Of a stretch of DNA of 54,960 bases, positions 77 through 43,208 are shown piece by piece. Source of the stretch: an uncultured Oscillospiraceae bacterium (GTDB lineage: Bacteria > Bacillota > Clostridia > Oscillospirales > Oscillospiraceae); contig CANQBC010000014.1 in the NCBI GenBank assembly GCA_947589225.1, positions 1 through 54,960 of the forward strand, written 5' to 3'. Every line of letters begins with the position of its first letter. Within the stretch, counting starts at the first letter, position 1. Both the position numbers and the translations under genes were made by a program. The notes beneath the pieces are model-generated. The model was given only the letters and a program-made list of their open reading frames with translations, did not search any database and was not told where the DNA came from.

Positions 77-272
77 CCCGGTAACCCGGGGGGCTCTCAG
101 TTTGTCAAAAAACTCAAGTCGAGCATTTTTTCCGGCGGCATGTACGTCGAAATTTGCCCCTTTTAGGTTCCCGGAGTGTACGAAGTGCATGGAGGGGACC
201 GGCAAATTTCTTCCGTTGGCAAAGGCATAGCCTTTGTCAACGGGTTGAGCCCCCCGGTAACCCGGGGGGCTC
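77..272 (-). repeat. Dispersed palindromic element, copy 1, bracketed by a duplicated hairpin
   Basis: A 20-bp sequence at 77-96 recurs exactly at 253-272, where it is the 3' half of a GC-rich hairpin (247-272). Between the copies lies about 150 bp containing an A/T hairpin near 116-155 and a second hairpin at about 214-243. The first 52 bp of the interior (from 101) nearly match the interior edge of copy 3 at 41585-41640. Together with the terminators at 22-67 and 296-324, it accounts for the first 348 bases, in which I see no gene. Confidence 0.7.
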
Positions 273-16792: not shown

Positions 16793-18373
16793 TTACGCGG
16801 CGACAAGGCTCACTTCGCCGGTGGCGGCGTTGAGCTGGACGTAATAGGTGCCGTCAGCCTCAACAACGTAGTTCTCGGCGGGATAAGCCACATCCCAGCT
16901 CTTGCCCTGGCGGCACTTGAGCTCGGTGCCCGCGTTCATCTCGAAAGCCTCGTCGGAGGTCCAGATGTCACCGTCGGCGGTCATGGGGAAGTCAACGTCC
17001 CAGCTGGAGCCGTTGACAGCGCCGATGACGGTGAAGGCGTTGCGCACCTCGTCGGTCATCTCGAACACGGCGGCGATGGAGTCAGCATACTTCTGCAGGG
17101 CGGCCTTCAGAGCCTCGTCGGAGCCGTCAGAGGCCTTGATGTCGGTGGTGATGACCTTGGCGATATCCCACCAGGAGCCGTGGATGTTGGGCTGGGGGAT
17201 AGCGTAGTTGCCCTGCTCAGCAAGAGCGGTCAGAGCCGGGTTGCTGGTGACGGACTCGTCCTGAAGGGCTTCCTTGTTGGAGGGGCCCCAGCCGAATTCC
17301 TGGGTGCGCTGGATCTGGCAATCCTTGCCGGTGAGGTACTGGGCCAGCTGGTTCAGGGCGGCGCCCTTCACGGCGTCCTCCTGAGGCTTCACGCCCAGCA
17401 GCTTGCAGCCGCTGTAGGAGCCCAGGTGGTAGCTCTGGCCGTCCACCTCGAAGGAGGGCAGATCGGCCACGCCGAAGTTGTCGCCAAGCTGCTCAAGAAT
17501 GGTGGCGTAGTTCCAGGTGCCGGTGACCACAACGGCGGAGCCGCTGGCGAAGTCGGCGGTGGCAGAGCTCACATAGATGGGGGAGGACACCAGCTTGTAG
17601 ATGCCCTTGGCGGCGATCAGGCCCTTGTCGGAGTTGAAGTCGTCGTCAATGCCGGTGAAGTTGCCGTCGTTGTCGGTGATCCAGTCGGAGTGGCAGCCGG
17701 TGCCGAAGAACACGCCGGCGAGGTACCAGGCGTTCTCCAGCTCATAGGAGAAGTTCTTGCCGGCGGCCTCGCAGTCGGCAATGATGGCCTCCAGGCTGTC
17801 AATATCCTCTTCGGGGACGACGGACTTGTCATAGTACATGAAGTAGCCGTTGTCGGCGGTGAGAGGATAGGCGTAGTAGTCCGTGCCGGACTGGGCGGCC
17901 AGAATGGAACCGGCGCTGTTGTTGTCCTTCACGAAGGTGGCGGCGCCGGTGCCCAGCTTGGTCAGCGCGCCCGCCTGGATGAGGCGGCTCAGCTGATCCT
18001 GGGCGAAGAAGAACAGATCTCCGCCCGCAGACACGTCGGTGATCATGTTGGTGGCGGCGTCGGCCTCGGACACGGGCTCAACGGTGGCGTTGATGACGAT
18101 GCCCATAGTGTTGGAGCTGTTGAAAGCCTCGATCTGCTGCTTGGTCAGATCGACGGCGGCATCGGGCGCCCAGACCTTCACTTCATAGGTGCCGGCCAGC
18201 TCGGTTCCGGTGTCGCCCTGCTGCTGGTCGTTGCCGCCCTGCTGCTGGTCGTTACCGCCCTGCTGCTGGTCATTGCCGCCCTGCTGCTGGTCGTTGCCGC
18301 CGCTCTTGTCGCCGCAGGCGACAAGGGAGAGCGCCAGGACAAGCGCCAGGATAATTGCTAAGATTTTTTTCAT
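16793..18373 (-). CDS. malE: Maltose/maltodextrin-binding lipoprotein
   Basis: This 526-residue solute-binding protein captures maltodextrins for MalFGK. The true start is the ATG at 18373, with AGGAGG 7 nt upstream. The signal MKKILAIILALVLALSLVACG has a lipobox ending in Cys. A linker of four GGNDQQQ-type repeats follows, encoded by four 21-bp DNA repeats (18214-18297). The mature domain shows the extracellular solute-binding family 1 fold (YEVKVWAPDAAVDLTKQQIEAF..., EFGWGPSNKEA). It is longer than usual by an internal region (about 300-350) and a C-terminal segment (from about 445). A strong promoter, upstream operator and structured leader indicate regulated high expression. Confidence 0.88.
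   Translation of the reverse strand: MKKILAIILALVLALSLVACGDKSGGNDQQQGGNDQQQGGNDQQQGGNDQQQGDTGTELAGTYEVKVWAPDAAVDLTKQQIEAFNSSNTMGIVINATVEPVSEADAATNMITDVSAGGDLFFFAQDQLSRLIQAGALTKLGTGAATFVKDNNSAGSILAAQSGTDYYAYPLTADNGYFMYYDKSVVPEEDIDSLEAIIADCEAAGKNFSYELENAWYLAGVFFGTGCHSDWITDNDGNFTGIDDDFNSDKGLIAAKGIYKLVSSPIYVSSATADFASGSAVVVTGTWNYATILEQLGDNFGVADLPSFEVDGQSYHLGSYSGCKLLGVKPQEDAVKGAALNQLAQYLTGKDCQIQRTQEFGWGPSNKEALQDESVTSNPALTALAEQGNYAIPQPNIHGSWWDIAKVITTDIKASDGSDEALKAALQKYADSIAAVFEMTDEVRNAFTVIGAVNGSSWDVDFPMTADGDIWTSDEAFEMNAGTELKCRQGKSWDVAYPAENYVVEADGTYYVQLNAATGEVSLVAA
18214..18297. repeat. Four 21-bp tandem repeats encoding the MalE linker
   Basis: Units start at 18214, 18235, 18256 and 18277, and differ by single bases. 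Each encodes one GGNDQQQ block, so unit gain or loss would keep the frame and only change linker length. Confidence 0.9.
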
Positions 18374-18398
18374 TTTTATTCCTCCTGATTTTTGTTTA

Positions 18399-18459
18399 TA
18401 ACAGTCTTTCATCCCCGCAACGCGGGGATGGCGAACAGGGGCCCCTGTTCGGACTGTTA
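18399..18459 (-). ncRNA. Three-way-junction RNA structure at the 5' end of malE mRNA
   Basis: An 8-bp outer stem (18452-18459 with 18399-18406) encloses two perfect hairpins: a 20-bp palindrome (18432-18451) and a 9-bp stem with 3-nt loop (18410-18430). Linkers are only 0, 1 and 3 nt. The outer stem begins about 3 nt after the predicted start of transcription and ends 20 nt before the ribosome binding site. It may stabilise the mRNA or respond to a signal; no known riboswitch class is recognised. Confidence 0.5.
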
Positions 18460-27430: not shown

Positions 27431-27745
27431 TGCCAAAGGGATGCGTTCGGGATCCCCGGCGTGAATTCTGCGGAATCCACGCCGGGAATCCCTGCTGTCG
27501 CCCTGCGCGCGCCGCCGGGATCCCCGCGCAATCATGATTGCGTGGGGAAAGGACGAGCCAAGCCTGCGCCTGAACCCTGCCCTTGCGGCGGGGCGAGGTT
27601 AAGCGGCTTGCGCGAGGACGCGGGCACACTTGGGCGACAAGAGGGATTTTTTGCGAGGCGCAGCCCCGCAAAAAATATTTAATTTGGGGTTTTCTAAAAG
27701 GATTTTTTCCAAGGCGCGTGTCCTTGGAAAAAATATTTTATAGGG
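27431..27745 (+). repeat. Dispersed palindromic element, copy 2
   Basis: Palindromes lie at about 27456-27485 and 27523-27548, with a core from about 27524 to 27648 that is roughly 96% identical to the complement of 41642-41765. Two A/T-rich hairpins follow (about 27645-27677 and 27701-27735). It fills most of the 444-bp gap between infB and rbfA. A small frame (27461-27682) spans it but has only a weak ribosome binding site. Confidence 0.8.
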
Positions 27746-40271: not shown

Positions 40272-41453
40272 TCACTCCTCCACCACGGCGTTGTCGTAAA
40301 GATTCGCGGCGCGGACGATAATGATATCGCCCTCCCGGAGGCCGTCATGCGTCGCCTCCACCATATAGTAATCCCCGCTCTCGGCAATGATATTGATAGC
40401 CGTCTCATGGGCTGTGATGCCGCGGAGCACGTAGCAGATCGTTACCCCGTCCTCATTGAGGTGTACCGCCTCCTTAGGCACACCCACGCCGGACATCGTT
40501 TCAAAAACGATCTCCGCCGCGGCCTCCCTGAGGGCCGCCACGTCCTGCATGTATTTGTCTGTGGAGAACACCACGGCGCACCTGCCGCCCTCGGGGAGGC
40601 TTACGTTCTCCACCCTCATGGACAGCTCGGCGGAGTATGTCCTTGAAAAGGCCAGCTTCACATTTTGCCCCGGCGTCAGCTTCCGGGCGCTGATTTCATC
40701 CATCTCCGTGACGTAATACCACCTGATGCCGCGCACCAGCTTGCCCACCACGTTGGCCCCCACGGTCTTGGGAGAGGAGAAGAGGCTCCTGTACTGAGTG
40801 GGGCTCAGATCGTCCATATCCGAGGGCTTGACGCTCTCAAATCCGTCCGCCGCAAAGGAGAAGGTGCCGGAAAATGGCGCGGTGACCCGCCCGGTGTCGG
40901 AGGAGGCGCTTTGGGCAAGGTCGTGAAGCTGCCCCTCAAGGGCGGCGATCTCCTCCGCCTCGCTGCCCGTTGCCAGGGCCGTGCCCGAAATGATATAGGC
41001 GTCCACGTCCTGCTCTATCTCGTACAGCTGCGAGAGATCCCCGGAGGACACCGCTTTTGAAAGGGAGATGATCGTCTCCTTTGAAAGCTGATCCTCGCTC
41101 TTGCCGTTTTTGATGGCGGTGAGCTGCCGTATCTTGAGTTGTATCTCGCTTATCTGCTGCGCCCGCTCCATGGCCTTGGCGCCGGAGTACCGCACGGCGA
41201 TGGTCTCGCCGGCGGCCAGCTTCGCCCCCTCCGTCACCGTGACGGCGATGTCGGAGCCGGAGGCCGTCAGCAGCTCCTCGTCCCGGACGATGTATCCCGA
41301 TGTCTCAAGCCCGTCCCGAAGCTCCATGCCGGAGGCGTTGACGGTACGCAGGGGATCGCGGTAGCTTGTCACAAAGGAGATGCCCAGATATGCCATGACC
41401 GCCGCGAACACCAGGACCGCCACAAATTTAATTATGGAATCGCTCCGCTCCAT
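40272..41453 (-). CDS. HlyD-like membrane-anchored adaptor in the division operon
   Basis: The 393-residue protein has a single N-terminal helix (about 9-30, IIKFVAVLVFAAVMAYLGIS). An extracytoplasmic region follows with a lipoyl-like beta domain split by a helical hairpin (about 100-165; ISEIQLKIRQL) and beta-barrel segments (VTAPFSGTFSF, PGQNVKLAFS). The layout is that of periplasmic adaptor (HlyD) proteins, but no exporter lies nearby. As first gene of yggS-sepF-divIVA it may act in division or envelope assembly. AAGGAGG is 13 nt before the ATG at 41453, and the more upstream ATG at 41480 lacks a site, so the start is uncertain. Confidence 0.75.
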   Translation of the reverse strand: MERSDSIIKFVAVLVFAAVMAYLGISFVTSYRDPLRTVNASGMELRDGLETSGYIVRDEELLTASGSDIAVTVTEGAKLAAGETIAVRYSGAKAMERAQQISEIQLKIRQLTAIKNGKSEDQLSKETIISLSKAVSSGDLSQLYEIEQDVDAYIISGTALATGSEAEEIAALEGQLHDLAQSASSDTGRVTAPFSGTFSFAADGFESVKPSDMDDLSPTQYRSLFSSPKTVGANVVGKLVRGIRWYYVTEMDEISARKLTPGQNVKLAFSRTYSAELSMRVENVSLPEGGRCAVVFSTDKYMQDVAALREAAAEIVFETMSGVGVPKEAVHLNEDGVTICYVLRGITAHETAINIIAESGDYYMVEATHDGLREGDIIIVRAANLYDNAVVEE

Positions 41454-41494
41454 ACCTATGTCCGCGCCTCCTTCCGGCATACGTTAACCAATAA

Positions 41495-41523
41495 ATTATA
41501 TCACGCTTTTCATCATTTGTCCA
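41495..41523 (-). promoter_or_regulatory. Promoter of the division/ileS operon
   Basis: TGGACA, a 17-nt spacer and a perfect TATAAT lie 40 bp upstream of the HlyD-like start. It abuts the repeat element. Confidence 0.75.
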
Positions 41524-41552
41524 TTTAATATTCACATTTGGCAAAAAATAAA

Positions 41553-41914
41553 AATCAGAGCGGGTTTCCCCGCTCTAATTTCAGATTGTCAAAAAACTCA
41601 AATTGAGTATTTTTTCCGGCGGCATGTACGTCGGAAAAAATACCTTTTGTCGCCCAAGTGTGCCGGCGTCCTCGCGCAAGCCGCTTAACCTCGCCCCGCC
41701 GCAAGGGCAGGGCTCAGGCGCAGGCTTGGCTCGTCCTTTCCCCACGCAATCATGATTGCGCGGGGACCCCGGCGCGCGCAGGGCGACGGCAGGGAAATTC
41801 CGCGTGAATTTCGCAAAATTCACGCGGAGTTTCCCGCACGTTCCCCTTTGTCGGAAAAGGCCAAAGGCCTTTTTCGACAGGTTGGAATCAGGGCGGGTTT
41901 CCCCGCTCTGATTT
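41553..41914 (-). repeat. Dispersed palindromic element, copy 3, bracketed by the hfq terminator
   Basis: A 29-bp sequence containing a full hairpin occurs at 41553-41581 and again at 41886-41914 with two mismatches. Only the distal copy keeps the T tract. Inside lie the hairpins 41600-41640, 41735-41766, about 41793-41834 and 41850-41878, plus the core shared with copy 2. Apart from the promoter at 41495-41523, this fills the 433-bp gap between hfq and the HlyD-like gene. Confidence 0.8.
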
Positions 41915-42184
41915 TTATCGAAGCGCCGGTTCCCTCTCCGGCAGTATTTCCGGTTCCTCCTCAAGCTCGGGGATCGAAAGGCTCCTGGCCGGGGCGATGG
42001 TGGAGATGGCGTGCTTGTACACCATCTGCTGCTTCCCCTCGCTTTCCAGCATCACGGTAAAGTTGTCGAAGCCCAGCACCGCGCCGCGCATCTGAAAACC
42101 GTTGACCAGAAACACAGTCAGCGGCGCCCTTTTTTTCCGCGCCTCGTTCAAAAACGAATCCTGAATGTTAAGTGTCTTTATCAT
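41915..42184 (-). CDS. hfq: RNA chaperone Hfq
   Basis: The 89-residue Sm-fold protein forms hexamers and mediates small RNA-mRNA pairing. Sm1 is [42 protein letters not shown] in outline, and Sm2 is [15 protein letters not shown], with the Y/F-K-H signature. The C-terminal tail is short and acidic. AAAGGCGG precedes the ATG. It follows miaA as in most bacteria and may use a -10 TATAAT at 42275-42280. Confidence 0.95.
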
Positions 42185-42274
42185 ATGTAAGCCGCCTTTC
42201 CGCGCGATCGCGCGCGCTGTATATATTTGGGGCGCGCTCCGGGTCTCCCCGCCGTCCCCTCCGGCGTCTTACAT

Positions 42275-42280
42275 ATTATA
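42275..42280 (-). promoter_or_regulatory. Possible hfq promoter -10 box
   Basis: A perfect TATAAT lies 90 bp upstream of hfq, just past the miaA stop. The best -35 candidate (TCGACA) is 19 nt away, so the promoter is only moderately supported. Confidence 0.4.
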
Positions 42281-42284
42281 CCAG

Positions 42285-43208
42285 TCATTTTAAGAAATTT
42301 GTCGAAAGAAACACGGCTTTTTCAAAATCCGGTTCTTTTTCAAAATTCAAATGAAGCGCGCTATCATACCGCTTGCACCAGCTGATCTGGCGTTTGGCGT
42401 ACCGGCGGGACTCGCGCTTGACGGTCTCCACGGCCTCGTCAAGCGGGCTTTCTCCGGTAAGGGCGGCGCATATCTCCTTATACCCGATGGCCTGCATGGC
42501 GGTGTGCCGCGGCGTCAGGCCCATCCGGAGGAGCCGTTCCACCTCCTCCGCCAGCCCCCGCTCCATCATCCTGTCCACCCGCCGGTCGATGCGGTCATAG
42601 AGGTCCGCCCGGTCGGCGAACCCCAGGACGATGGTTTTTGCGTCGTACCTCGGCGGCCTTTTTTTCGTCTCAAGGTCGTGTTCCGAAATGCTCCCGCCGC
42701 ATTTGGCGATCTCCAGCGCCCGGACAATGCGCTTTTTGTCGTTGGGATGGAGCTTTTTTGCCCGCTCCGGATCGGCGGCGGCAAGCTCCTCGAGCAGCTT
42801 TTCCCCGCCAAGCTCGTCGTACCGCGCCGCCAGCTCCTCCCGCAGCCGCCCGTCCTCCGGCCTTCCCTCAAAGTCCCGGCCGGAGATCAGCGATTCGATA
42901 TAAAGCCCCGTGCCGCCCACGATAAACGGCGTCCGCCCCCGCCGGAGAATGTCGTCGCACGCCGCGGCGGCCTCCTCCACATAGCGGGAGACGGAGTAGC
43001 TTTCAAAGGGGCTGACCACGTCGATCATGTAATGGGGTACCCCGCCCATTTCGGCCTTTGTGGGCTTCGCCGTCCCCACGTCCATGTATCTGTACACCTG
43101 CATGGAATCGGCGGAGACCACCTCGCCGCCCAAGAGCTTCGCCAGACGCACGCCCAGCTCCGTCTTGCCCGTGGCGGTAGGCCCCGTGATGACCACGACT
43201 TTTCTCAT
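42285..43208 (-). CDS. miaA: tRNA dimethylallyltransferase MiaA
   Basis: The 307-residue enzyme adds the isopentenyl group to A37 of tRNAs reading UNN codons. It carries the P-loop GPTATGKTELG (about 9-19), SADSMQVYRYMDVGTAKP, GGTGLYIESLISG, and the C-terminal RRYAKRQISWCKR. The product is the substrate of MiaB, encoded 3 kb away on the other strand. The ATG overlaps the mutL stop by 4 bp. Confidence 0.95.
   Translation of the reverse strand: MRKVVVITGPTATGKTELGVRLAKLLGGEVVSADSMQVYRYMDVGTAKPTKAEMGGVPHYMIDVVSPFESYSVSRYVEEAAAACDDILRRGRTPFIVGGTGLYIESLISGRDFEGRPEDGRLREELAARYDELGGEKLLEELAAADPERAKKLHPNDKKRIVRALEIAKCGGSISEHDLETKKRPPRYDAKTIVLGFADRADLYDRIDRRVDRMMERGLAEEVERLLRMGLTPRHTAMQAIGYKEICAALTGESPLDEAVETVKRESRRYAKRQISWCKRYDSALHLNFEKEPDFEKAVFLSTNFLK

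Follow-up and report, generated by a model that had tools for sequence, protein, structure and literature searches.

The stretch of DNA analysed here (the window) comprises 54,960 nucleotides of an uncultured Oscillospiraceae bacterium (GenBank assembly GCA_947589225.1, contig CANQBC010000014.1, positions 1 to 54,960 of the forward strand). A minus-strand gene, which we take to be hfq from a reading of its protein, is separated from the next downstream gene by a 305 bp element (Table 1). The element has the termini TCAGATTGTCAAAAAA... and ...TTTTTCGACAGGTTGG, ORFs of more than 100 aa run across it in the ORF list of the window, and a copy of one hairpin borders it on either side. The two copies are identical at 26 of 28 positions, and the right one begins one base past the hfq stop codon. 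The duplication is confirmed; the original prediction had described it as 29 bp long with two mismatches, the additional position being one more flanking base. A terminator scan of 41400–42300 returned four sites on both strands (1.6 expected). Both minus-strand sites (41582–41551 and, nested, 41572–41556) are located in the hfq-distal hairpin and none in the proximal one, so the further claim that only the hairpin away from hfq keeps a T tract also holds. On the minus strand, the T-tract hairpin still follows hfq. Folding of that strand in the hfq region gave a z score of −10.9 relative to shuffles.

Table 1. Features of the hfq locus, further copies of the repeat in the window, and full-length insertion sequences (ISs) found in related genomes.
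Feature	Position	Strand	Basis or remark
Copy 1, 152 bp, bordered by a GC-rich hairpin, partial on one side and full on the other	97..248	+	flanks match at 20/24 bases, score 8
Copy 2, degenerate, interior present	27434..27693	-	sequence and R1 model matches
HlyD-like secretion protein gene, next downstream of hfq	40272..41480	-	PF12700
Distal hairpin copy (putative left target site duplication, TSD), T tract after hairpin on minus strand	41553..41580		28 bp; flank comparison, terminator scan
Putative MITE, 305 bp, IS1182-type terminal inverted repeats (TIRs), no transposase	41581..41885	+	own-genome search; 5' end 17/17 vs right end of IS L091
Predicted inner hairpin A of the element	41607..41643	+	same hairpin covaries in 14 copies of alignment A1; window copy outside A1
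Predicted inner hairpin C (long stem) of the element, approximate limits	41792..41835	+	strongly covarying among A1 copies; R1 match 41734–41845, 75 bits
Hairpin copy adjoining hfq stop codon (putative right TSD), hfq side without T tract	41886..41913		28 bp
hfq (RNA chaperone Hfq, presumed), upstream of the insertion	41915..42184	-	80 aa query, 100% match at 41945–42184; C terminus and stop read from sequence
Full-length ISs L091, L093, L094, L095, L103			1498–1513 bp
Full-length ISs L090, L102			1650 bp, ends slightly different

Copy 1 scored below the threshold of 10 applied to flank duplications and lies outside the 64-copy set described below; copy 2 has no recognisable TIR and no duplicated hairpin. 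A 21 bp tandem repeat of about five units (window 18190–18294) was also observed within a 539 aa ORF (16793–18412, minus strand). Searching the own genome (G000) with the 305 bp element gave 102 matching pieces, many ending at the same two points, and the element is dispersed there in multiple copies: 19 of the 64 copies with both ends come from this genome. Both-ended copies range from 85 to 408 bp and have the end hairpins in common, with central modules that differ. Matches to the element's central module (query positions ca. 148–251) also occur away from the element ends (G000:C1:60158–60263, C45:13309–13415, C15:40973–41079 and others), so this module may be a separate nested repeat. By eye, the hairpin that holds copy L002 resembles another copy's central module and the hairpin that holds L247 resembles inner hairpin C, which suggests nested insertion.

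Of the 64 both-ended copies whose flanks were compared, 19 belong to the own genome and 45 to sister genomes or MAG loci. The set is conditioned on which loci the preceding searches had yielded and on recognisable ends, with two mismatches allowed per end pattern; direct duplication was counted at a score of at least 10. By this measure one hairpin region is directly duplicated at the flanks of 29 of the 64 copies, and none of 4032 mismatched flank pairs used as a control matched. The duplications are 15–36 bp long (median 27), with a median palindrome identity of 0.82 (lowest 0.11). A hairpin lies within two bases of both ends in 32 of the 64 copies, of one end in 19 and of neither in 13; random positions in the same loci fell at a hairpin in 30 of 1280 cases. 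By a simple count, the outer flank is A-rich on the left or T-rich on the right in 16 of the 29 duplications, and the other 13 are not demonstrable terminators. Because of these 13, and because some targets resemble hairpins of other copies, it seems to be the palindrome itself that is targeted. Duplications at L012, L013 and L016 are fully identical, which suggests that movement was recent.

No direct duplication was scored for the other 35 copies, some of which have only a one-sided hairpin. At L007 and L163 one flanking hairpin is the exact reverse complement of the other; the flanks of L010, whose two stems differ by a compensated change, also score higher as reverse complements. In the corresponding control, again none of 4032 mismatched pairs matched in this way. 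Such flanks might reflect an inversion of the loop following insertion. Two different hairpins abut the ends of L009 and L011 in the own genome. Recombination between copies possibly produced these flanks, as well as those of L096 (see below); at L009 and L011, deletion could also have done so. A separate flank survey, in which L001, L007, L008 and L033 appear on both strands, was not used for the MITE counts.

Possible autonomous partners were sought through the transposase domain PF13751, which is present in 18 of 60 relatives; 30 PF13751 matches were scanned for the end motif. Both ends were found at IS spacing (about 1500–1650 bp) at seven loci. An eighth locus, L096, from another family of the order, carries both IS-type ends 753 bp apart and is flanked by two different hairpins; no such end pair was found at the remaining 22. 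Each of the seven full-length ISs lies between perfect direct copies of a whole palindrome (19–29 bp). Direct repeats of IS1182 elements are given as 0–60 bp. The four transposases tested all match NF033551 (IS1182) at 371–440 bits (cut-off 270) and all carry PF05598 together with PF13751; NF033551 is above cut-off in eight of the 34 genomes of the genus. The 5' end of the window element is identical to the right end of IS L091 at 17 of 17 positions. Compared with the IS consensus TCAGNNTGTCAAAAAA, the IS ends have 0–3 mismatches, the 5' ends of the 64 short copies 0–4 (21 with none) and their 3' ends 1–5, so that the 3' ends fit the IS less well than the 5' ends. In the 15 of 590 BLAST rows examined, alignments between short elements and ISs were at most 17 bp long. 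A full-length relative with the same ends and a transposase, which the original prediction had proposed to look for, is thus present in sister species, with closely similar ends and a transposase of the IS1182 family. The own genome, which is 97% complete, gave no PF13751 match and thus no intact partner, and its NF033551 matches are three fragments of at most 26 bits; the transposase has perhaps been lost from this genome or lies in the missing 3%. A MITE does not strictly need an intact partner in its own genome. The outermost IS base was observed to vary among copies (T, A or C) and to be equal at both ends in six of the seven ISs (L091, L093, L095, L103, L090 and L102; L094 differs); it might be derived from the target.

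From these sequence comparisons, the 305 bp element is very probably a MITE with the ends of an IS1182-family insertion sequence, for which an IS1182-type transposase acting in trans would duplicate the whole target hairpin. This DDE transposase would join the element ends to the opposite feet of a palindromic hairpin; the stagger would be the whole hairpin, and gap repair would give its direct duplication. Duplication length would then track hairpin length (15–36 bp around the MITEs, 19–29 bp around the ISs). Since terminators are frequent targets, each side would be left with a full hairpin, with the outer sides keeping the pre-existing A or T tract, and at hfq the T-tract terminator would have ended up on the far side of the element. 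Mobilisation in trans, the cleavage geometry, the identity of the transposase that moved the hfq-side copy and the effect on hfq transcripts are what we infer; the duplication, the element-free alleles (see below), the common ends and the transposase family are shown by sequence comparison.

One of the closest described systems suggests a different outcome. IS1272/TnSha1, an IS1182-family element of staphylococci, selects hairpins, frequently those of terminators, whose primary sequence is little conserved, and replaces or partly deletes the target hairpin with no target duplication, according to the accessible text of PMC4923244 and PMC5678879. Transposase family and hairpin targeting are thus alike, but here the hairpin is duplicated. 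Were the transposase to excise its target in the manner reported for IS1272, the hairpins now present would be leftovers, a reading with which the 32 of 64 copies having a hairpin at one end or neither would agree. The perfect whole-hairpin direct repeats at all seven full-length ISs and the scored duplications at 29 of the 64 MITEs make such a stem-loop replacement very unlikely.

Alleles without the element support duplication upon insertion of a MITE. The hfq gene was matched in 32 of the 34 genus genomes, and the 130 bases downstream were compared at 30 loci, the own locus included. In G009, a sister species whose Hfq match is 96% identical, hfq is followed by a single homologous hairpin (stem AATCAGGGC/GCCCTGATT) between A and T tracts and no element; the loop and inner stem differ from those in the window, and the sequence past this hairpin aligns with the part of the window that follows the distal hairpin. 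At the other 28 loci no homologous hairpin was seen by eye in these 130 bases, some having an unrelated single hairpin and others none; a related element lies near hfq in G011. The rplL gene was matched in 31 of the 34 genomes; the C-terminal motif resolved 20 of the 30 loci analysed but not the other 10. In the own genome the element at rplL lies between hairpins with matching stems, in G018 between two identical 28-mers (a 28 bp hairpin), and in G001 and G011 the same 28-mer occurs exactly once, with the element absent at that hairpin.

Two independent terminators with the element merely inserted between them would also give a hairpin on each side, and the unlike pairs at L009 and L011 would fit this. 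However, none of the 4032 mismatched flank pairs match as the 29 true ones do, and at rplL the element-free alleles have one hairpin where the occupied allele has two exact copies, which leaves this explanation extremely improbable. The comparison downstream of hfq proposed with the original prediction thus yielded a single-hairpin, element-free allele, though in another species. Duplicated terminators that never occur beside a single-terminator allele had been named as the pattern opposing insertion; so far, single hairpins are found at hfq in G009 and at rplL in G001 and G011, all of them other species. Together with the IS1182 relatives with similar ends, these alleles support the earlier proposal of terminator-targeted insertion by a transposase-less MITE moved in trans.

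The interior of the element was analysed in two alignments. A1 contains 14 of 15 copies of about 200 bp from the own genome and sister species, with L015 left out owing to its degenerate 5' end and the window copy absent; A2 contains 21 of 30 rows, eight chance matches and L015 being left out. A1 gives six predicted helices; 24 of the 65 pairs have both partners changed, 98.7% of cells are paired, and on each of the five measures 0 of 500 shuffles reached this. Slid structures had at most seven pairs with both partners changed; this comparison favours the A1 structure, which was itself derived from A1, and counts of this kind are inflated when the copies are related. On one strand, A1 has some nearly invariant G-U pairs (two of them in 13 of 14 copies). 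This is a hint in favour of RNA over a DNA cruciform, and by these models the interior is possibly a structured-RNA cargo. A known structured RNA was rejected as an identification: Rfam gave no match in the window, and the five matches in four loci (E up to 1) all fell short of the gathering score.

Matches to the core model occur in 23 of the 34 genus genomes and in none of 26 others; the RNA-model figure of at least 63 for the own genome (up to 65 candidates were scored per genome) is not a copy count, as the element can match on both strands. However, weak DNA matches to a long copy were also obtained outside the genus, in G042 (11 matches, best 3e-8), G050 and G058, all three of which belong to other families. 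In a pattern scan of named genomes, uncultured Oscillospiraceae (many isolates Lapin...) and Intestinimonas were among the matches listed. The orientation relative to genes, obtained by using a longest-ORF strand caller that mis-called rplL, was 30 gene ends and 28 gene starts on the right, and 28 ends and 31 starts on the left, counts to which we attach no conclusion. A motif scan of the collected loci found 56 core copies, 20 of them without the strict 3'-end motif; at least L064, L200 and L247 are among these 20 yet bear the end, so that at most 17 have another 3' hairpin. Two of these, L319 and L321, whose 3' hairpin does not resemble the IS ends, were observed directly after the rplL stop codon.

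The strong covariation of the interior, and the other 3' hairpins of some core-bearing copies, would suit a stationary structured RNA gene or 3'-end module that was spread by recombination and has IS-like ends by coincidence. The 5' end, which matches an autonomous IS at 17 of 17 positions, and the hairpin duplications are marks of transposition, and they render this origin exceedingly unlikely. A group IIC intron at a terminator was dropped as a candidate, the ends being inverted repeats common to DDE ISs and the flanks being duplicated. Within the MITE interpretation, a bolder extension seems to us doubtful but worth stating: the interior might be a conserved structured RNA (or folded single strand) that is itself under selection and is spread to gene ends by IS1182-type transposases. 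The duplication would make arrivals nearly harmless to termination, and some copies might then shed the IS ends and be retained as fixed structures at the 3' ends of host genes, rplL for example.

Palindrome targeting by IS1182 members is mentioned by Siguier et al. according to the accessible text of PMC5678879, where the model in the legend of Fig. 13 has a branch in which the entire stem-loop is duplicated. The IS1182-linked MITEs of Methanosarcina acetivorans (partner ISMac2) are, like the present copies, short and transposase-less, with only the ends in common with an IS1182-family IS; their direct repeats are given as 4 or 0 in the available part of PMC3852290, whereas those found here are palindromic and 15–36 bp long. 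ISCaa15 of Amoebophilus asiaticus (1434 bp), from the same IS family, has 4 bp direct repeats in two copies rather than a whole hairpin in the part of PMC3196728 available, so whole-hairpin duplication is not general in the family. BOX, RUP and SPRITE of Streptococcus pneumoniae are also small and intergenic and insert into one another, and SPRITE is terminator-like (accessible text of PMC10969869 and PMC3049150); that of PMC10969869 describes no duplication of whole terminators. IS1182 is among the families listed as over-represented between converging genes in the available part of PMC9208149. A literature search of titles and abstract openings returned nothing on this repeat or on whole-hairpin duplication by an IS1182 MITE; nor did it bring up a covarying interior combined with hairpins that both the IS and the MITE duplicate.

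Most transposases generate short duplications of fixed length. Here, the duplication is the palindrome itself, of any length, which supports structure-recognising DDE transposition, so far one branch of a model in the accessible text of PMC5678879. Such transposition would explain how the repeat settles at gene ends such as those of hfq and rplL without destroying their terminators, and both occupied and unoccupied alleles are available for testing. The covarying interior, in turn, raises the question of a mobile structured RNA.
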